Of a stretch of DNA of 64,000 bases, positions 20,163 to 35,684 are shown piece after piece (position 1 is the stretch's first letter; the number at the start of each line of letters is the position of its first letter). The notes under the pieces are model-generated. The model ran no database searches. It worked only from the letters and a program-made list of their open reading frames with translations, and was not told the DNA's origin. Origin of the DNA: Rhodoligotrophos sp. CJ14 (GTDB lineage: Bacteria > Pseudomonadota > Alphaproteobacteria > Rhizobiales > Im1); NCBI RefSeq assembly GCF_038811545.1, contig NZ_CP133319.1, forward strand, positions 2,261,516-2,325,515, read 5' to 3'. A program made the translations under genes and the position numbers.

Positions 20163-20493
20163 CAGCTATCCTTCATCTGCTGTACGCATAGCATCAATGC
20201 CGGCTTTCATATGGGTACGCAAGGAAGCTTGGCCAGTATTGTCAATCAAGCGTCGCTCTGCGGCAGCCAATTCAGGAAGATGCCCCGCTCCTTGAAGCAA
20301 GGAGTAGCGCGCGACGCCCCGCTCTCCGAGCCCTTGTTGACGCTGCCTCGCCCTGCTGGCACGGTCTGCCCAGCAACCAAGGCTTGATGCGCGGAGAAGG
20401 CTGCGTCTGGCCAATCGTTCATGGCATATGGACTGGTGCGTCCGCTGCGCCTTCTGCGAAGGTGGCGAGCCGGTGCCGAGAGAGGAGACGTCT
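20163..20493. other. Divergent intergenic region between cbpA and the CoA-transferase
   Basis: About 330 bases separating two divergent transcription units. Open frames here lack ribosome sites and protein-like composition. An in-frame ATG for the CoA-transferase occurs at 20428, but the GTG at 20494 with its AGGAG site is better. I see no further structure in it. Confidence 0.6.
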
Positions 20494-21747
20494 GTGGATT
20501 CGCAAGCTCAGGGCCGGCAACGCCCATTGCCATTGGCGGGCATCAAGGTGCTCGACCTCTCTCGTGTCTTGTCCGGGCCCTTGTGCACCATGACCCTGGC
20601 CGATCTCGGCGCCGAGGTTTGGAAGATCGAGAATATTAGCGGTGGCGATGACACCCGCGCCTGGTCCGTCCCGAGCTATAATGGCACCTCCACCTATTAT
20701 CTCTGCGCCAATCGCGGCAAGCAGAGCATTGCCGTGGACCTGAAATCGAGGGAAGGCCAGGAGATCGTCCAACGCCTCGCCGCCAAGGCGGACATCCTTG
20801 TTGAGAATTTCCGCACGGGCGTCGCCGATAAGCTTGGCGTCGGCTTTGATGCCCTTTCAGCAATAAACCCGCGCCTCATCTACTGCTCGATCTCGGGTTA
20901 CGGCCAGACGGGTCCTGATGCGCACCGCCCCGGCTATGATTTTATCGTTCAGGCGGAAAGCGGCTTGATGTCGGTCACCGGCGAAGCGGACGGCGCCCCC
21001 ACCCGCACCGGCACGGCGATCGTGGACATCACCGCGAGCATGGTGGCCACTCAGGCGATCACCGCTGCCCTTTACGAGCGTGAGCGCACTGGGGCTGGCC
21101 AGCATATCGATCTGGCCATGTTCGATTGCGCCATGAACCTTCTGATCAATATCGGCGCGGCCTATCTCAACGCGGGCGTTGTGCCGCGCCGCCATGGCAA
21201 TGGCCATCCCAGTGTCGTGCCTTACGAGATCTTCGAAGCGGCCGACGGCGACTTCGCCCTTGCTGTGGGCAATGACAAGCAATTCGCCGCCCTGTGCCGG
21301 AAGGTGATCAATCGCCCGGATCTCGCCGAGGATATTCGCTTCATGCGGGCGGGGGACCGCGCGACCCATCGCTCCACCCTGGTTCCCCTTCTTCGCGATA
21401 TCCTGAAAACCCGCGCCAGGGCAGAGTGGATCACGGCTTGCCGCGCGGCGGAGGTTCCAGCGGGCATGGTGCACAGTCTGCCGGAAGCCTTCGACAGCCC
21501 GAATGTCCGCGAGCGCAACCTTGTGCAAACCGTCGATCACCCGGAGCTTGGCCCGGTCCGCCTGGTGCGGCCGGCGCATGGCCTCGCCGCGCAGCGTGAA
21601 GCCTCTCCCGTCCCGCCTCCGATGCTCGGCCAGGACACGGCCCATATCCTCGGGACGATCCTCGGCTACGACCAAGCGACAATCGAGCATCTTCGCGAAA
21701 TTGGAGCCATAGGCATATATACCGCCGCACAGTCACACGGCTCCTGA
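20494..21747 (+). CDS. CaiB/BaiF family (class III) CoA-transferase
   Basis: About 417 residues. Class III CoA-transferases move CoA between acyl groups through an aspartyl thioester. The family start [20 protein letters not shown], the [11 protein letters not shown] segment, and the catalytic aspartate in [13 protein letters not shown] are present. Substrates vary (formyl, carnitinyl, succinyl, mesaconyl, sulfonate thioesters). I chose the GTG at 20494 because AGGAG lies eight bases upstream and residues before it are not conserved-looking. The downstream aldehyde dehydrogenase (39-base gap) suggests a shared catabolic route for a dicarboxylic or hydroxy acid. Confidence 0.9.
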
Positions 21748-21786
21748 GTAGCTTAGGTCCGCTGAGGGCGGGCGAGAAAGGCCAAC

Positions 21787-23217
21787 ATGTATTCTGACGT
21801 TCTGCTTTACATTGACGGCAAATGGACACCCAGCGCTGACGGGAAGGCCGATCCGGTCATCAACCCGGCCAATGAGAACAAGCTCGGCACAGTCGCTCAC
21901 GCCTCCATTGCCGATCTCGACCAGGCGCTTGCCGCGGCCGAGCGGGGGTTCGAGATTTGGCGCAATGTCTCGGCCTTCGACCGCTCCAAGCTGATGCGCA
22001 AAGCCGCCGACCTGCTTCGCGAGCGCGCCGAGTCAATTGCCCGTATCATGACGCTTGAGCAGGGCAAGCCGCTCGCCCAGTCGCGCATGGAAGTGCTCGG
22101 CGCCGCCGATACCATCGACTGGTTCGCTGAAGAGGCCCGGCGCACTTATGGACGCATCGTGCCGTCCCGGACAGCTGGCGTCGATCAGCTGGTCTACAAG
22201 CGCCCGGTTGGACCAGTGGCAGCCTTCACTCCCTGGAACTTCCCGATCAACCAAGCGGTCCGCAAGATCTCCTCGGCCCTGGCCACGGGCTGCTCGATCA
22301 TCGTGAAAGGGCCGGAGGAAACACCGGGCTCCCCCGCCGAGCTCATCCGCGCCTTTGCCGATGCGGGTCTGCCGGCCGGAGTCCTCAACCTGGTCTACGG
22401 CACCCCCGCCGAGATCTCGGAATATCTGATCCCGCATCCGGTCATCCGCAAGATCTCCTTCACCGGCTCGACCGCCGTGGGCAAGCAGCTCGCCGCCCTC
22501 GCCGGCCTCCACATGAAGCGCGCCACCATGGAGTTGGGTGGCCACGCGCCGGTGATTGTCGCCGCCGATGCCGATATCGACGAGGCGGCCAGCCTGATGA
22601 CGACGCACAAGTTCCGCAACGCCGGTCAGGTCTGCGTCTCGCCCACGCGCTTCCTCATCGAGGAGCCGGTCTACGAGCATTTCGTCCACCGCTTCACCAG
22701 GCTAACCTCCGAGCTCAAGGTCGGCGACGGCCTCGAGGACGGCGTCCAGATGGGCCCCCTGGCCAACGCCCGCCGCGTTCAGGCCATGGAAGACTTCGTG
22801 CAGGACGCCGTGAGCTGTGGTGCCGAACTCGCAACCGGTGGCAAGCGCATTGGCAATGCCGGCTATTTCTTCGAGCCGACCGTCCTCACCAATGTCCCCA
22901 AGCACGCCCGCGCCATGAACGAGGAACCGTTCGGGCCGCTGGCGCTGATGGTGCCGGTCAAGGATATGGATGATGCGCTGCGCGAGGCGAACCGGCTGAA
23001 CTACGGCCTTGCCGCCTATGGCTTTGCCAAGTCCGCCAAGACCATCGATCGCATTTCGGACGGCATCGAGACGGGTATGATCACCATCAACCATCTCGGC
23101 CTCGCCCTGCCGGAAGTGCCCTTCGGCGGCATCCGTGATTCCGGCCATGGCACCGAGGGCGGCGCCGACGCGCTCGAAGGCTATCTCGAAACCCGCTTCG
23201 TCACGCGCCGCGGCTGA
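21787..23217 (+). CDS. NAD(P)-dependent aldehyde dehydrogenase, succinate-semialdehyde type
   Basis: 476 residues of the ALDH superfamily: [10 protein letters not shown], the [10 protein letters not shown] cofactor loop, [10 protein letters not shown], the catalytic glutamate in [10 protein letters not shown] and nucleophilic cysteine in [12 protein letters not shown], and [10 protein letters not shown]. Family resemblance is closest to succinate-semialdehyde/glutarate-semialdehyde dehydrogenases (GabD-like). It is probably co-transcribed with the CoA-transferase upstream. The exact aldehyde cannot be read from sequence. Confidence 0.92.
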
Positions 23218-23252: not shown

Positions 23253-23687
23253 TCAGGGTTCCACATAGCCCTCGATCCGCAACCGCGGGCTATGCTGGGA
23301 CGGATCAGTTGAGAACTGAAGCCCGAACCGCCGTTCCGAGTGTTGCGGCACCGAGTCGATCTCGATGCTGCTCCGCTCGATCGGATTTTCCCCGTCCATG
23401 AGCTCGCCCGTGACCTTCACCTGGGTCGCGGGCATCTCTCCCTCGTTGCGCACCTTGCCTTGTAGCAGATAGCCGTCTGCCGTCTGCTGCACCGAAACCG
23501 GCTCCAGAATGAGTTTCGGTGGGGTCTCCGGCGCGGTCAGGCCGAAATAGGCGAGATAGCCCGCCATCCCCAGCACGATCAGGCCTCCGATGGCCGCAAA
23601 CAGCCATTCGAGCCGCGACGTTCCTATCTGGAGGATTTCGTCTTCCTCTTGGCCGCGGGCCTCGTCTTTGGCATCCACACTGCTCAT
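23253..23687 (-). CDS. TIGR02588 family membrane-anchored protein
   Basis: 144 residues: a charged cytoplasmic N-terminus, one transmembrane helix (about 32-54), and an outside domain of beta-rich sequence (TPPKLILEPVSVQQ, GKVRNEGEMPATQVKVTGE) that looks like an immunoglobulin-like or CARDB-type fold. TIGR02588 proteins are consistently found next to TIGR02587 membrane proteins, as here, where the start overlaps the partner's stop as ATGA. Function of the pair is not established. Confidence 0.83.
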   Translation of the reverse strand: MSSVDAKDEARGQEEDEILQIGTSRLEWLFAAIGGLIVLGMAGYLAYFGLTAPETPPKLILEPVSVQQTADGYLLQGKVRNEGEMPATQVKVTGELMDGENPIERSSIEIDSVPQHSERRFGLQFSTDPSQHSPRLRIEGYVEP

Positions 23688-24523
23688 AGAGCAAGCCTCG
23701 CAACTGCCGCACCGATCGCCCCGGGAAATGCGAGCACGACGGCCATCTTGAAGATCTCCTCGAGGCTGGTGCCGTCGGTTCGCTCGAAAACCCAGAGCAG
23801 CAGCAGACTCACCACAAGCGCCAATGCATAGCCCACCACCGTAAAGCGCAGGAAAATGCTCGTGAGCGTCCCTTCCTCCTGATGGGTGCCGTGGAATTCG
23901 ACCATGTAGACGAAGCCATGCATGAGCAGGAGGCTGAGGGCCATGAGCAGGAGCTGTTGGGAGACAGACATTGCATAGGAGATCAGCGCCACCTCGTCGG
24001 TCGGCGCGATGTTGAGCGACAAAAACAAGGCTCCAACAACCATCAGGAACAGCTCGCCGAGATAGGTCGGCTCCCGCATGCGACGCTTCTCGCGCCCGGC
24101 CGTTCCGCCCAGCTGGTTCTGTGCGAGCAGCGCGCCGATGCTGCCCGGAATCATCTGGATGGCGACCTTCCCGAGACTCTCTCGGAGCGACATGTCCCCG
24201 GTGATCTGTCCGCAGATCCACAGCACGACCAGCGCCGTGACGAAGGCCACACCCATGCCCACCATGGCATCCGCGACATCGTCGGACAGCTGCACCGTCT
24301 CGCGAAACCCGCCGAAGCGAGAGAGGCCGACGAGCAGCGGCAACGTGAGCAGGAGCATCAGGGCCAGCCGGTATTCCGGGATCGTGAAGCCCAGATCCCA
24401 CATCTCCATGGTCATCATCATCGGCAGGGAGAACACGAGCGCGCCGGCAAAGGCTCGGGAGATGCCCGTCAGCAGTTGCCGCGTGTCTGGAATGACAATC
24501 GATATCGGAACATCTTCCGCCAT
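23684..24523 (-). CDS. TIGR02587 family integral membrane protein
   Basis: About 279 residues with seven or eight hydrophobic helices and few charged loops, ending in an alanine- and glycine-rich helix. TIGR02587 members are uncharacterised and paired with TIGR02588. The best start is ATG at 24523 (MAEDVPISI) with GAGGAT upstream; the frame is open to 24568. I can infer only a two-part inner membrane complex with the downstream product. Confidence 0.83.
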   Translation of the reverse strand: MAEDVPISIVIPDTRQLLTGISRAFAGALVFSLPMMMTMEMWDLGFTIPEYRLALMLLLTLPLLVGLSRFGGFRETVQLSDDVADAMVGMGVAFVTALVVLWICGQITGDMSLRESLGKVAIQMIPGSIGALLAQNQLGGTAGREKRRMREPTYLGELFLMVVGALFLSLNIAPTDEVALISYAMSVSQQLLLMALSLLLMHGFVYMVEFHGTHQEEGTLTSIFLRFTVVGYALALVVSLLLLWVFERTDGTSLEEIFKMAVVLAFPGAIGAAVARLAL

Positions 24524-24659
24524 CACCGCTCGATCCTCGGTCTCACTGCCAGCGGCAAGACAACGCAACGTTGCAGATCAGGTTCCCGCGCGCCGGGGAT
24601 CTGCCATTCCTCTGCGCCAAACGATTGGAATGACCGTTGTGTCGGGGTAAACAGAACCC

Positions 24660-29823: not shown

Positions 29824-29870
29824 AGAACTTAGACCATCTCACCATTTGACCGAGGCGTAAGACGATCTAG
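29824..29870. repeat. Dispersed repeat, degenerate GAACTTAGA...GATCTAG copy
   Basis: Begins AGAACTTAGACCATCTCACC and ends GACGATCTAG. It matches the copy at 6889-6936 at both ends with a diverged middle. The terminal CTAG supplies the TAG stop codon (29869-29867) of the yejF-like gene. Confidence 0.65.
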
Positions 29871-31501
29871 GTGGCGACAGCCGCCGAATGAATGGCTTCA
29901 TGTGAGAAAGCCGCCGCGATGAGCGCCTTGGTATATTCGGTCTTCGGCTGCTCGAAAATATCCGCGGTGCTGCCCGCTTCGACCACATGCCCGTTTTTCA
30001 TCACCATGACCCGATGGGCCATGGCGCGCACCACCTTCAGATCATGGCTGATGAACATATAGGCCAGCCCGTGTCTTTGCTGCAATTCGCGCAAAAGCTC
30101 GACGATCTGCGCCTGCACGGACATGTCCAGCGCGCTGGTCGGCTCGTCCAGCACCACAAAACGCGGCTGCAGCACCATCGCGCGCGCGATCGCGATCCGC
30201 TGACGCTGACCACCGGAGAATTCATGGGGATACCGGTCCATCGCCGCCGGATCGAGCCCCACCTCCTCGAGCGCTGAAGCAACCTGTGCCCGCTGCTCCT
30301 GCCGCGACAGGCGCTTGTTCTGCACGAGCAACCCTTCCGCCACGATCTCGGCAATCGACATGCGCGGACTGAGCGAGCCGTAGGGGTCCTGAAAGACCAC
30401 CTGAATGTCCTTGCGGATGCCGCGGAGCTCGTCCGCCGGTAACTTGTCGATGCCGTTGCCGAGATAGGCGATCCGGCCTTCCGACGAGATGAGGCGCAGC
30501 AGCGCCAGCCCGAGCGTGGTCTTGCCCGAACCGGATTCGCCGACGACCCCGAGCGTCTGCCCCTCATGCACCTTCAACGAGATGCCATCGACCGCCTTGA
30601 TATGCCCTACTGTCCGCTTGAACAGGCCGCGCTTGATCGGAAACCAGATCTTGAGATCGTCGGCTTCCATCACCACGGGCGCTGCGGGGTCCGCAGCGGG
30701 CGGCTCGCCCTTGGGCTCTGCCGCAAGTAGCTGCTGGGTATAGGGATGCTGAGGCCTGGTGAAGATGTCCTCGACATCCCCGGCCTCGACGATCCGCCCC
30801 TTGGTCATCACGCAGACCCGCTGCGCCATGCGTCTGACGATCCCCAGATCATGGGTGATGAGCAGCATGGCCATCCCGAGCTCCCGCTGCAACTCGCGCA
30901 GAAGATCCAGGATCTGAGCCTGAATGGTCACATCGAGTGCCGTCGTCGGCTCATCTGCGATCAGCAGGACCGGCTTGTTGGCGAGCGCCATGGCGATCAT
31001 GACGCGCTGGCGCTGCCCTCCCGAAAGCTGGTGCGGATAGCTCGCGAGCCGGCTTTCCGGATCTGGGATGCCGACCCGGGTGAGCAGCTCGATGACCCTG
31101 TTGCGCGCCTGGGCATCGCTCATGCCCTGATGCAGCTTCAAAACTTCGCCGACCTGATCCTCGATCGTGTGCAGCGGATTGAGCGAGGTCATCGGCTCCT
31201 GGAACACGATGCCGATCTCATTCCCGCGGATGCGGCGCAGAGTGCGATCATCTGCATGGAGGACATCGCTGCCTTCGAACAGGATGCGGCCCGTCGGATG
31301 GCTGGCTGCGGGATAGGGCAACAGCCGCAGGACGGAGAGCGCCGTAACGCTTTTGCCGGAGCCCGATTCGCCCACCAGAGCGACGGTCTCGCCGGGCCGG
31401 ATATCGAAGGACACGCGGTCCACCGCCAACACCCTGGTATCGCCTTGGGCGAAGGCGACCGAAAGCTCTTCGACGGACAGGAGTGGCGCGGCCTCGCTCA
31501 T
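29867..31501 (-). CDS. yejF: Peptide ABC transporter, fused dual ATP-binding protein (YejF-like)
   Basis: About 544 residues carrying two complete ABC ATPase domains. Walker A GESGSGKS and GESGSGKT, signature motifs LSGGQRQR and FSGGQRQR, and Walker B LLIADEP and VVLDEP all occur twice. Each half has the oligopeptide/dipeptide C-terminal extension ([21 protein letters not shown]). YejF energises the YejABEF importer for oligopeptides and microcin C. The ATG at 31501 overlaps the yejE stop as ATGA; an upstream frame extension to 31606 lies inside yejE. Last gene of the operon. Confidence 0.94.
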
Positions 31502-32673
31502 CGATAGGTCTTCCTCGGATCGAAGGCATCGCGGACAGCCTCGCCGACAAAGATCAGCAGGCTCAGCATTACTGCGATCACCAGAAAGCCTGAGATGCCG
31601 AGCCACGGTGCTTGCAGATTATTCTTGCCCTGCGCCAGGAGCTCTCCGAGAGATGGCGAGCCCGGCGGCAGGCCCAGGCCCAGAAAATCGAGCGAGGTCA
31701 GGGTCGTGATCGAGCCGTTCAGAATGAACGGCATGAAGGTCAACGTTGCCACCATGGCGTTCGGCAAAACGTGCCGGAACATGATGTAAGCGTTTGAGTG
31801 CCCCATGGCCCGCGCCGCCATGACGAATTCCAGGTTCCGCCCCCGCAGGAACTCGGCACGCACCACGCCCACCAGCGCGACCCAGGCGAACAGCACCATG
31901 ATGCCCAAAAGCACCCAGAAGCTCGGCTCGATCACCGCCGCAAGGATGATGAGCAGATAGAGCGTGGGAACCGAGTTCCAGATTTCGATGAAGCGCTGGA
32001 ACAAGAGATCGGTCCAGCCGCCGAAATAGCCCTGCACGGCGCCTGCGGCGACCCCGATGATGGAGGAGAGCAGGGTAAGCGCGAGTCCGAACAGTACCGA
32101 GATCCGGAAACCGTAAATAAGCCGCGCAACCACGTCGCGGCCTTGATCGTCAGTCCCCAGCCAGTTCACATTGCCCAAGACGCAGTTCGGGTCGTTCACC
32201 CCCTGCGGATAGGCGGCGCACCGCTGCGCCTTGTCCATCATCCAATAAGGTGGGGAAGGTGCCGGCACCGGCAGCTCGAGATTGATCGTCCGATAGGAAT
32301 AGCGGATGGGCGGCCAGATGATCCAGCCATTCTGGTTAATCTGCTCTTGGATGAAGGGATCGCGGAAATCGGTTTGTGGCAGGAACCCGCCGAAGGTGCT
32401 TTCCGGAATATCCTGGTAGATCGGAAAATAGAAATGGCCGTCATACTTGACCATAAGTGGCCGGTCATTGGCGATGACCTCGGCAAACAGGCTGACGCCG
32501 AACAGCACGAGGAAGATCCATAGCGACCAGAATCCGCGCCGGTGTGCCTTGAAATTCTCCCATCGCCGGCGGTTGATTGGCGAAAGAAATCCGGAGCGTG
32601 CGGGTGGGATTGGCGCTGTCTCGCTCGCGACCGGTGCCTCTCCGGGCAGGGCTTTTGGATCGAGCATATCCAC
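31498..32673 (-). CDS. yejE: Peptide ABC transporter permease (YejE-like)
   Basis: 391 residues, DppC/OppC family. An N-terminal extension and helix (LWIFLVLFGVSLFAEVIAND) precede a large periplasmic loop with NCVLGNVNWLGTDDQGRDVVARL, then five permease helices with the EAA-type loop ARAMGHSNAYIMFRHVLPNA. The long loop is typical of YejE. GTG start at 32673 directly after the yejB stop, with GGGAG upstream. Confidence 0.93.
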   Translation of the reverse strand: MDMLDPKALPGEAPVASETAPIPPARSGFLSPINRRRWENFKAHRRGFWSLWIFLVLFGVSLFAEVIANDRPLMVKYDGHFYFPIYQDIPESTFGGFLPQTDFRDPFIQEQINQNGWIIWPPIRYSYRTINLELPVPAPSPPYWMMDKAQRCAAYPQGVNDPNCVLGNVNWLGTDDQGRDVVARLIYGFRISVLFGLALTLLSSIIGVAAGAVQGYFGGWTDLLFQRFIEIWNSVPTLYLLIILAAVIEPSFWVLLGIMVLFAWVALVGVVRAEFLRGRNLEFVMAARAMGHSNAYIMFRHVLPNAMVATLTFMPFILNGSITTLTSLDFLGLGLPPGSPSLGELLAQGKNNLQAPWLGISGFLVIAVMLSLLIFVGEAVRDAFDPRKTYR

Positions 32674-33783
32674 TCAGCTCTCCCGTGACTCGAAATCGAT
32701 GCGGGGATCAACCCAGGTATAGGTCAGATCGCTGAGCAGATTGATAAGCAGCCCCAATAGCCCAAAAATGTACAATGTCGCAAAGACCACGGGATAATCG
32801 CGATTGATCACCGACTCGTATGAAAGGAGTCCCAGCCCATCCAGCGAGAAAATCGTCTCGATCAAGAGCGAGCCCGTGAAAAAGGCCGAGATGAAAGCGC
32901 CGGGAAAGCCAGCGATGAGGATGAGCATGGCATTGCGGAACACATGTCCGTAGAGAACCTGCCGCTCGGTCAGCCCTTTCGCCCGCGCCGTCATCACATA
33001 CTGCTTGCGTACCTCGTCCAAGAACGAGTTCTTGGTCAGCAGCGTCGTGGTCGCGAAGGCGCCGACCACCAGTGAGGTGATCGGCAAGGCCAAATGCCAG
33101 AAATAATCAGTGATCTTCTGATACCAGGGCAACTGGGCCCAGTTGTCGGAGGTCAGCCCCCGCAACGGGAACCAGTCGAGAAACGAGCCACCCGCGAACA
33201 GCACGATCAGCAGAACGGCAAACAGGAAGCTCGGGATTGCATAGCCGATGATGATGACAGCACTAGTCCAGACATCGAAGCGTGAGCCGTCTCGCATCGC
33301 CTTGGCAATGCCCAGCGGCACCGAAATGCCATAGGAGATCAGGGTCATCCACAGCCCGAGGGATATGGAGACGGGCAGCTTCTCCTTGATCAGATCCACC
33401 ACCGATACGTCGCGGAAATAGCTCTTGCCGAAATTGAACGTGGCATAGTTCTTCAACATCAGCAGAAAGCGTTCGTGGGCCGGCTTGTCGAAACCGAACT
33501 GCCGTTCGAGCTCCTTGATGAACTGCGGATCAAGCCCGCGCGCGCCTCTATACTTGGAGGAGACGCCGCCATCATTGACGCCGGACGGGGTCGCGCCGCC
33601 CATCGTCTCCCCACCCCCGCCGCCGATACGGGCGGTGGCGCTCACATCGGCGCCCGAGAGCTGGGCCAGTACCCGTTCCACCGGACCGCCCGGGGCGAAT
33701 TGCACGATGATGAAGCTCACCAGCATGATTCCGAGCAAAGTCGGGATCATCAACAGGAGCCGCCTCAAGACATAGCTGGCCAT
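32674..33783 (-). CDS. yejB: Peptide ABC transporter permease (YejB-like)
   Basis: 369 residues of the DppB/OppB family. [20 protein letters not shown] is the usual first helix, followed by [16 protein letters not shown], a YejB-type insertion of about 50 residues with a glycine-rich segment ([12 protein letters not shown]), and five further helices with the EAA loop [20 protein letters not shown]. It forms the membrane channel with YejE. Confidence 0.93.
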
Positions 33784-33833
33784 CTCAGCCGGTCACCTCG
33801 CGCCTTGCGATGCAATGCAGGGACTGAAACATG

Positions 33834-35684
33834 TCAATTGAAGCCAAGCTTTGCCGCCTTTTCCGGTTCGTACCACCAGGTATCCTCGATACCGAGAGCG
33901 TAATCGGCGATTTTGTCGGGCCGGCTGAACACATCCCAATAGGCCAGCCGATGTTTCGCGCTGTACCAGTGGGGCACCCAAAAATGTTCAGCGCGCAGCA
34001 CCCGGTCCAGCGCATGGGCGGCCGTCACCATCTCTTGCCTGCTATTCGCCCGTAAGATCCTGTCCATCAGGGCATCCACTGTCTTGCTGCGGATGCCCGC
34101 AAGGTTATAGCTGCCAACATCGTCGGCCGCTGCAGAGCCAAACAGGGCAAAGAGCTCGGAACCCGGCGTTATCCCCAACACGAAGCGTTGCGACACCAGA
34201 TCGAAGTCGAAATTCTTCAGCCGCTCCTGGTACTGAGCGGTATCGACGATGCGCATTCGCCCTTCTATGCCGAGCAAACGTAGATTTTTGATATAGGGTG
34301 CGACCACCCGCTCGAAGGTCGGCTCGAACATCAGAAACTCGATGGTGAGCGCCTCCCCGGCGGCATTGGTGCGGCGTCCGTTCTTGATCGGCCAGCCCGC
34401 CTCGTCCAAAAGGCGCGCCGCCTCCCGCAGCAATTTGCGATCCTGACCCGAGCCATTGCTCACCGGCGACATATAGGCCGGCCCGAACACCTCGTCAGTG
34501 AGTGAGCTCTTGAACGGCTCCAGCAGCGTGAGTTCCTCAGGTGAAGGCGTACCTTCCGCCTTCAGTTCGGAATTCTCGAAAACCGAATTGGTTCGCGTAT
34601 AGCTGTCATAGAAGAGGTTCTTGTTGAGCCATTCGAAGTCGAAGGCATAGTTTAACGCCTTGCGAACGCGCGGGTCCGTGAATTTGTCGCGGCGCATATT
34701 GATGAAAAAGCCCTGCGCACCCGAAGGATTGCGATCGGGTAACTCCTCGCGCCGCAACTGGCCGTTTCTCACGGCAGGTATGTCATACTGGGTTGCCCAG
34801 TCTCGCGCGGTGAATTCCTGTCGCAATAGAAACGCCCGCGCTTTGAGCCCTTCGAGCTCAGCCGTGCGATCGCGATAATATTCGAAGCGGATCTCATCGA
34901 AATTATAGCGCCCCCGATTGACCGGCAGATCCTTGGCCCAATAATCGTCCCGCCGCAGGAAGGTGATGAAGGTGCCCTGCCGCAGCGGCCCTACCTTATA
35001 CGGCCCTGATCCCAGCGGCGGCTCGAGGGTGGTCTGCTCGAAGGAATGGGCCTGATAATAGGCCTTCGACAGCAACGGGAGACCTGCCACCCGTCCCGGC
35101 AGATCCCTGACATTCTCGCCTTGAAAGGTGAAGATGACCTGCTGCGGGTCGACGGCTCGTGCGCTCACCACATCATTGAGCGCGATTCGATAGCTGGGGC
35201 TGCCCTTGTTCTTCAGGGCCTCGAATGTGAAGACCACATCCTCCGCCGTGAGCGGAGAGCCATCCGAGAACCGGGCTTCCGGCCGCAGATGAAAGGTGGC
35301 GCTCATCCTGTCTTCCGGGATTTCCACGGAATGTGCGACCAGGCCGTACATCGCATCCGGCTCGTCTTGCGCGCGGGCCATGAGCGTGTCGAAGGTCAGC
35401 TCCATCCCTTGTGCCGCATCGCCGCGTATGATGAAGGGATTGAGGCTGTTGAACGTATTGACCGAGGACGTTCCGGTTCGCGAAAGCTTGCCGCCCTTTG
35501 GCGCGTCCGGATCGACGTAATCGAAATGCTGGAAGTCCGGCGGGTATTTCAGCTCACCGAAGGTCGAGAACCCGTAACGGGGCTGCTGGCCCGAAGCAGC
35601 TCTGGCGCGGATCGGCGGCAGAAGCGCTCCCAGACCGGAGAGCGCGGCGATCGTGAGTACCCTTCGCCGGGTGATTGGCGCCAT
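33834..35684 (-). CDS. Extracellular peptide-binding protein, YejA-like (copy 1)
   Basis: 616 residues, SBP_bac_5 family. A twin-arginine-like leader (TRRRVLTIAALSGLGALLPP) precedes the mature domain. YejA-type features are FGELKYPPDFQHFDYVDPDAPKGG and the C-terminal NYALGIEDTWWYEPEKA region. It binds peptides or microcin-like compounds for the Yej permease. 50 bases upstream of yejB and three bases downstream of a second YejA-like gene, with which it shares the same layout but clear divergence. Confidence 0.92.
   Translation of the reverse strand: MAPITRRRVLTIAALSGLGALLPPIRARAASGQQPRYGFSTFGELKYPPDFQHFDYVDPDAPKGGKLSRTGTSSVNTFNSLNPFIIRGDAAQGMELTFDTLMARAQDEPDAMYGLVAHSVEIPEDRMSATFHLRPEARFSDGSPLTAEDVVFTFEALKNKGSPSYRIALNDVVSARAVDPQQVIFTFQGENVRDLPGRVAGLPLLSKAYYQAHSFEQTTLEPPLGSGPYKVGPLRQGTFITFLRRDDYWAKDLPVNRGRYNFDEIRFEYYRDRTAELEGLKARAFLLRQEFTARDWATQYDIPAVRNGQLRREELPDRNPSGAQGFFINMRRDKFTDPRVRKALNYAFDFEWLNKNLFYDSYTRTNSVFENSELKAEGTPSPEELTLLEPFKSSLTDEVFGPAYMSPVSNGSGQDRKLLREAARLLDEAGWPIKNGRRTNAAGEALTIEFLMFEPTFERVVAPYIKNLRLLGIEGRMRIVDTAQYQERLKNFDFDLVSQRFVLGITPGSELFALFGSAAADDVGSYNLAGIRSKTVDALMDRILRANSRQEMVTAAHALDRVLRAEHFWVPHWYSAKHRLAYWDVFSRPDKIADYALGIEDTWWYEPEKAAKLGFN

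Follow-up and report, generated by a model that had tools for sequence, protein, structure and literature searches.

A CoA-transferase and semialdehyde dehydrogenase gene pair as a probable arm of an IclR-linked, two-promoter catabolic system

The adjacent genes for a class III CoA-transferase (CT) and a semialdehyde dehydrogenase (ALDH) in the window, by which we mean the whole 64-kb stretch of Rhodoligotrophos sp. CJ14 DNA analysed here, probably form part of a two-promoter catabolic system and act in one pathway with a fused dehydrogenase E1 that is encoded elsewhere in the genome. We regard the pair as one arm of such a regulon because of the order of the genes in related bacteria and because a palindrome is found there at both the CT/IclR and the E1 promoters. 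The species that supplied the window has the enzymes of both arms, and appears to have lost the regulator gene and the palindromes that accompany them in its sister species.

The gene pair and its products

CT is encoded at positions 20494..21747 of the plus strand and ALDH at 21787..23217 of the same strand, with a 39-bp gap between them (21748..21786, plus strand) whose last bases, ahead of the ALDH start, are common to the sister species. Both reading frames are uninterrupted where the sequence-only reading had placed them, and its description of an adjacent and co-directional class III CoA-transferase and semialdehyde dehydrogenase was borne out by Pfam: CT scores 427.9 bits against CoA_transf_3 (PF02515, the CaiB/BaiF family; cut-off 23.3) and the 476-aa ALDH scores 518.4 bits against Aldedh (PF00171; cut-off 23). 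CT has 417 aa when read from GTG 20494. An alternative in-frame ATG at 20428 would yield a 439-aa version; the GTG is the likelier start, since GAGAGGAG lies just upstream of it and an in-frame GTG occupies the corresponding position in the sister species.

Neither protein reached the curated NCBIfam cut-off for any named specificity. The best match of CT was the succinate-glutarate CoA-transferase model NF052585 (368.9 against a cut-off of 750) and it fell far below the formyl-CoA transferase cut-off (TIGR03253, 230.7 against 504.2). For ALDH the best match was the succinate-semialdehyde dehydrogenase model TIGR01780 (474.4 against 646.35), and the cut-offs of NF008415, also for that enzyme (428.6 against 828), and of GucD (359 against 770) were likewise not reached. 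We place the putative catalytic aspartate of CT at Asp178, using the equal offset between its residues 13-217 and residues 4-208 of 1p5h/2vjk and taking Asp169 of the Oxalobacter enzyme to be the catalytic residue of class III CoA-transferases; an aspartate occupies this position in 54/54 sequences of the CT clade.

The nearest solved chain to CT is 10uh (563 bits), which shows 87-89% identity to CTs from six Brucella/Ochrobactrum-type loci and belongs to the same clade as the window protein. That clade has 58 rows and a support of 100, and consists of the window CT, the CTs of 50 of the 57 related loci described below and of four plasmid loci, the sister CT and 10uh. The full-length match and the aligned putative catalytic aspartate are shared with 10uh/10ui/9zav and with 9br7, a succinate-hydroxymethylglutarate/glutarate CoA-transferase; 10uh lies inside the clade, whereas 9br7 lies outside it and CT does not reach the succinate-glutarate cut-off. 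The solved orthologue (PDB 10uh/10ui/9zav) carries the name 'formyl-coenzyme A transferase', a name for which the family cut-offs give the window CT no support.

Among solved chains, ALDH is nearest to 9zh8 (626 bits), 5x5t (625 bits) and 5vbf (561 bits). The last of these is a succinate-semialdehyde dehydrogenase, presumably of the Burkholderia type, in which the catalytic Cys and Glu and the Glu that favours NAD are kept. The second is the alpha-ketoglutaric semialdehyde dehydrogenase of Azospirillum brasilense (5x5t/5x5u), for which a review gives Cys287 and Glu253 as catalytic residues and associates Glu181 with NAD preference (PMC9795676). Residues Cys283, Glu249 and Glu177 of the window ALDH match these three at a constant offset of 4, and they are kept in 39/39 sequences compared, one of which (L114) is a distant paralogue. 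The setting of the two enzymes differs: a CoA pathway for the window ALDH, pentose breakdown for the Azospirillum enzyme.

Phylogenetic placement, which the sequence-only reading had proposed as a check on both enzymes, gave a clear answer for CT, with its fully supported clade, and a mixed one for ALDH. The window ALDH groups with CT-linked Mesorhizobium ALDHs (support 86), but the CT-linked proteins do not form one exclusive clade: they are interspersed with the A. brasilense enzyme and with ALDHs from genomes where no CT is adjacent. Both trees were made with FastTree only, and the program warned of long branches among paralogues. The window genome, a 4.81-Mb single contig, has further ALDHs of 65% and 57% identity to the one in the window; with 17 CoA-transferase-family matches and 19 ALDH matches in all, it presents a risk of paralogue interference in any growth test.

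Both genes are under purifying selection between the window and the sister species, where dN/dS comes to approximately 0.17 in CT and 0.09 in ALDH, and to 0.11-0.14 in four genes nearby; these values rule out the pair as a relic. No catabolic gene adjoins it in the window. On one side it is flanked by genes for a DnaJ-type protein and its MerR/CbpM-like partner, for an MBL hydrolase and for CobF, and on the other by a TIGR02587/TIGR02588 pair, whose second member scores below its cut-off, and by the gene of an MltB-type transglycosylase; these flanks look like housekeeping genes. The TIGR02587/DUF2391 membrane protein and the TIGR02588-like protein are encoded between ALDH and the MltB-type gene at 23253-24568 on the minus strand. 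In the sister species the interval from the ALDH match to the MltB match is about 216 bp, which implies that the TIGR02587/TIGR02588 pair was gained in the window or lost in the sister. We considered an Opp-like transporter at 29867-35450 of the window as a partner of the pair and set it aside: its genes have just 24-50% identity to the transporter genes of the Agrobacterium T29 cluster, and its neighbour set is found in the sister's locus too, so it is probably a separate system.

Gene order in related loci

The homologous loci, 57 in number, came from a scan of genome contigs, with flanks of at most 10 kb that make all counts lower bounds; a gene was counted at an identity of at least 35% over at least half of the query unless otherwise stated, and ALDH at an identity of at least 50%. 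An IclR regulator gene is found in 45 of the loci, in 43 of them divergent from the transporter or CT, and an Opp/Dpp-type ABC transporter with both permeases in 44. The gene for the transporter ATPase stands directly before CT in 42 loci, with a gap of less than 250 bp. The sequence-only reading had noted that no regulator or transporter is adjacent to the pair; this is true of the window and untrue of the system: in the sister species an IclR gene is divergent from CT at the syntenic place, and the related loci supply the regulator and transporter counts just given.

A clear orthologue of ALDH occurs in 35/57 loci, within 250 bp of CT in 23 and after one FadJ-like gene in 12. It is downstream of CT and on the same strand in 35/35 loci that hold it, so the adjacency of the two genes exceeds chance; their separation in close relatives, which the sequence-only reading had named as the argument against a link, was not seen where both are present. 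The linkage does have its counterpoints, in that 15 of the 50 CT-clade loci hold no ALDH orthologue within the sequence covered (six of these have an FMN monooxygenase match instead), and of the genomes close to that of the window one lacks both orthologues and one has ALDH without this CT. The monooxygenase matches are of the NtaA/DmoA type and are found near CT in L086, L094, L100, L101, L107 and L127; in all but L086 the match is just downstream of CT, the place of ALDH in other loci. Broken frames are suggested by the alignments in two further cases (L118 10001-12646; L122 11302-12689): CT and ALDH align only in pieces in a Brucella cytisi locus, and ALDH aligns only in pieces in a Mesorhizobium tianshanense locus.

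The remaining genes of the 57 loci include an OtnK-like kinase (27), a class II aldolase (27), E2 (25), a solute-binding protein (24), E1 (24), ACAD (19), a FumI-like aminotransferase (14), a FadJ-like enzyme (14, two of them in loci without ALDH) and PcaF (5). The count for E1 rises to 35/57, with 4/4 plasmid loci in addition, once E1 fragments at the ends of the available sequence are admitted. The E2 of one relative is of the AcoC type by the NCBIfam model (407 against a cut-off of 307). Antisense open reading frames that cluster across loci had no family match where they were scanned and were set aside. The system occurs in Mesorhizobium, Brucella/Ochrobactrum, Shinella, Rhizobium, Agrobacterium, Ancylobacter and Rhodobacteraceae-type loci, and annotated examples are provided by plasmid pShin-08 of Shinella HZN7 and a plasmid of Agrobacterium T29. 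In T29 the FadJ-like gene is separated from CT by PcaF and followed by ALDH, with ACAD also in the cluster.

A palindrome at two promoters

The consensus palindrome in the relatives is TGRAATTNAATTYCA. It is present at no more than two mismatches in 48/48 IclR-divergent regions (22 exact, 25 with one mismatch and 1 with two), compared with 0.1 of 48 in a control of 20 shuffles per region, and it precedes E1 in 31/31 related loci whose available sequence includes the start of E1 (12 exact, all from Mesorhizobium, and 19 with two mismatches), compared with 0.2 of 34 shuffled E1 promoters at the same threshold. Eight loci in which the available sequence does not hold the E1 start stand outside the count of 31. 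The consensus was written after palindromes of four kinds had been seen in eight of the 48 regions, many of the loci are close kin and one-mismatch sites occur elsewhere, so that the counts of 48/48 and 31/31 are neither blind nor independent.

Scanning whole loci at no more than one mismatch (61 loci and two stretches of the sister genome) placed 47 sites at the IclR promoter, 13 at the E1 promoter (12 of them in the 61 loci) and one at PcaF, 248 bp before the gene, where 0.11 sites were expected by chance in the 61 loci. The E1 sites at one mismatch come from Mesorhizobium and the sister species only; at two mismatches they extend to all 31 loci with an E1 start. The sister has GGAATTTAATTCC between IclR and CT, and the identical 15-mer, one mismatch from the consensus, between ACAD and E1 at its second locus, the two copies being on two contigs. 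One further genome, G208, has just two exact sites genome-wide; both share a contig with CT and E1, the first 106 bp before the E1 match and the second 4.2 kb before CT. The E1 of G003, a genome of the same family as the window's with no such CT, is 49% identical to that of T29 and has no palindrome upstream (best match, 6 mismatches). Genome-wide, the sites number 3 in G000, 4 in G001, 4 in the sister genome G002, 0 in G003, 4 in G208 and 3 in G070; because one-mismatch sites are also found elsewhere in genomes, the motif alone is not proof. The palindrome is a candidate operator for IclR. In the window genome, a one-mismatch copy is found at L134 7716 (C1:4355716), approximately 2 kb past the 3' end of the ALDH paralogue of 65% identity.

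Absence of the regulator from the window

The sister species, which belongs to the same genus, holds the pair in synteny, with identities to the window of 76% for CT and 88% for ALDH. Its IclR gene is transcribed divergently from CT, between CT and the DnaJ-type gene, and the product is 55% identical to the IclR of T29; its nearest subfamily is PcaR/PcaU/PobR, at a score below the cut-off (136.1 against 284.75). The corresponding place in the window is the region of approximately 330 bp between the divergent DnaJ-type gene and CT (20163..20493). A tblastn search of the 64-kb window with the sister IclR gave nothing in this region, the best match anywhere having an E value of 0.44, and the whole window genome offers no IclR match better than 34% over 144 residues. 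By blastn the region matches the sister over 18, 27 and 14 bases (E 0.0009-0.003), all of them in the two flanks of the IclR gene; no match to the coding part fell below E 0.5. We looked for an IclR remnant upstream of CT and rejected it, the matches being to the flanks only.

The palindrome is missing too. Its best match within 20163..20493 has 6 mismatches and its best match upstream of the E1 of the window genome has 5; no site at two mismatches or fewer occurs in the 64-kb window or in the 20-kb second locus of the genome. The window genome presents a CT of the clade, E1, the solute-binding protein and the FumI-like aminotransferase, while its two loci are without IclR and without the palindrome before CT (or the transporter) and before E1, all of which the sister has. 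From these comparisons, the IclR gene and both palindromes appear to have been lost in the window's species.

The second locus and the distribution of the system

The second locus of the window genome is approximately 1 Mb from CT and ALDH. The E1 gene (3,258,183-3,260,381) is followed on the same strand by genes for a family-5-type solute-binding protein and a class III aminotransferase, and then by a GntR gene and a 3-oxo-tetronate-kinase-type gene that scores above its cut-off (430.7 against 350). Identities to the Agrobacterium T29 cluster are 62% for E1, 63% for the solute-binding protein and 65% for the aminotransferase. The sister species has these three together with ACAD, which found no match in the 20-kb stretch around this locus of the window genome.

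E1 is a fused dehydrogenase E1 whose PDB matches are pyruvate and other 2-oxoacid dehydrogenases; it matched no acetoin-specific model. An AcoC-type E2 was found neither in the window genome, where the best match (65 bits) is to the lipoyl region only, nor in G208, where each of the best matches extends over either the lipoyl region or the hydrolase part but not both. The closest solved relative of the aminotransferase is 6hbs, an aminopentol aminotransferase that we take from the molecule's name to be FumI of fumonisin degradation (50% identity across 389 residues, 449.6 bits; the next solved family reaches 168.4).

Among 397 genomes of the order, the window's own genus included, CT is present at an identity of at least 60% in four (G000, G002, G208 and G070), and E1 at 74% or above and the aminotransferase at 80% or above occur together in G000, G002 and G208 only; G070 has CT but no E1 that reaches the threshold. 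E1s of lower identity (46-54%) occur in a further eight genomes, and aminotransferases of lower identity (49-69%) in eighteen. The aminotransferase is not specific to the system, given that copies of at least 49% identity occur in 21/397 genomes and that G001, from the same genus as the window, has one of 67% without this E1 or CT. Orthologues of both CT and ALDH are absent from G001. G003, from the same family, encodes an ALDH with 70% identity but not this CT, and in G003 and G029 alike there is no such CT near ALDH.

A proposed pathway and its alternatives

We propose that the pair carries out two late steps in the catabolism of an imported, amino-bearing organic compound. In relatives it would form the tail of an IclR-linked operon with the Opp/Dpp transporter, and the same palindrome would front a second operon that is headed by E1 and contains, where seen, the solute-binding protein and the FumI-like aminotransferase. 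In published work, FumI takes the 2-amino group off hydrolysed fumonisin B1 and leaves a 2-keto product named as a 3-hydroxy-2-one (PMC2933618); on that name, the product is an alpha-hydroxyketone of the acetoin type. This chemistry, together with the E2 of one relative that matches the AcoC model, suggests the order of the reactions. The aminotransferase would convert a 2-amino-3-hydroxy group to an alpha-hydroxyketone; E1, with an AcoC-type E2 where present, would split this into an acyl-CoA and an aldehyde that feeds ALDH; ALDH would use NAD to oxidise the aldehyde, which probably carries a distal carboxylate, to the corresponding acid; and CT would transfer CoA to the acid from a donor such as succinyl-CoA, for entry into breakdown of the beta-oxidation type, with such steps to follow where ACAD, the FadJ-like enzyme and PcaF are present. 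The acyloin step taken on its own is a tentative proposal that we would not favour over its negation. The suggestion in the sequence-only reading that the pair could activate a dicarboxylate and oxidise its semialdehyde is supported as regards the enzyme assignments and the functional link; the acid may be a dicarboxylate, and both enzymes may act on the same compound.

PcaF of T29 exceeds the TIGR02430 cut-off (708 bits against 597), and its place in one cluster with CT, the FadJ-like gene, ALDH and ACAD would suit an adipate-type route. ALDH would then oxidise the semialdehyde of a C6 (or C5) dicarboxylate, CT would make adipyl-CoA (or glutaryl-CoA) from succinyl-CoA, and ACAD, the FadJ-like enzyme and 3-oxoadipyl-CoA thiolase would yield acetyl-CoA and the succinyl-CoA that primes the next turnover of CT. 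That the succinate-glutarate CoA-transferase is the best NCBIfam match of CT and that the sister IclR is nearest to PcaR/PcaU/PobR are in keeping with this route, but CT scores at about half of the glutarate enzyme's cut-off, PcaF is found in just 5/57 loci, and E1 and the aminotransferase are left without a role. The PcaF cut-off is exceeded in G001, the sister and G003; in the window genome the best score is below the cut-off (404.9 against 597), and we rejected a closed 3-oxoadipyl route there. We consider the adipate-type route unlikely. It is very improbable that CT has formyl-CoA:oxalate-type chemistry, as the name of its solved orthologue 10uh and the similarity to that protein would suggest: the formyl-CoA transferase model is far from being reached, and no oxalyl-CoA decarboxylase is named among the annotated proteins of the cluster.

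The two genes may instead be neighbours by inheritance that serve separate reactions, with ALDH a general succinate- or alpha-ketoglutarate-semialdehyde dehydrogenase, CT an enzyme for some other acid and the regulon taken apart. The absence of IclR and both palindromes from the loci of the window genome is compatible with this, as are the occurrence of ALDH without CT in G003, the additional ALDHs and CT-family proteins of the genome itself, and the resemblance of ALDH to alpha-ketoglutaric and succinic semialdehyde dehydrogenases among solved chains. Against it, both genes are still adjacent and subject to purifying selection, and the locus of E1 and the aminotransferase is retained in the same genome; we think such a separation rather unlikely. 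One pathway that joins the pair to E1 is the reading that we prefer.

Relation to known systems and significance

The aminotransferase of the second locus shares half of its residues with FumI of the fumonisin-degrading Sphingopyxis sp. MTA144 (6hbs), but its neighbours are different, being the genes for E1, the solute-binding protein, GntR and the kinase. The acetoin dehydrogenase (aco) operon, in which an aldehyde dehydrogenase has a role, resembles the system in its combination of E1, E2 and ALDH activities and in the match of a relative's E2 to the AcoC model. Unlike aco, the system has a fused E1, a CoA-transferase, a FumI-like aminotransferase and an Opp transporter, and the AcoC-type E2 is missing from the window genome and G208 as noted above. 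Our searches of the open-licence PMC literature yielded no paper on this cluster, its substrate or the cluster of strain T29. A FumI-like aminotransferase, E1 (with or without E2) and ALDH-CT under one IclR operator may represent a general bacterial route for amino alcohols, with FumI borrowed from this older pathway, an idea that we hold to be speculative and on balance improbable.

Viewed alone, the pair looks generic; among its relatives it is part of a conserved, IclR-linked catabolic system. The species represented by the window would be a natural case of a regulon in which the enzymes have been kept while the regulator and both palindromes have gone. Genes that share the palindrome form a small set that can be tested jointly, and the FumI-like aminotransferase hints at the class of compound to which the substrate may belong.
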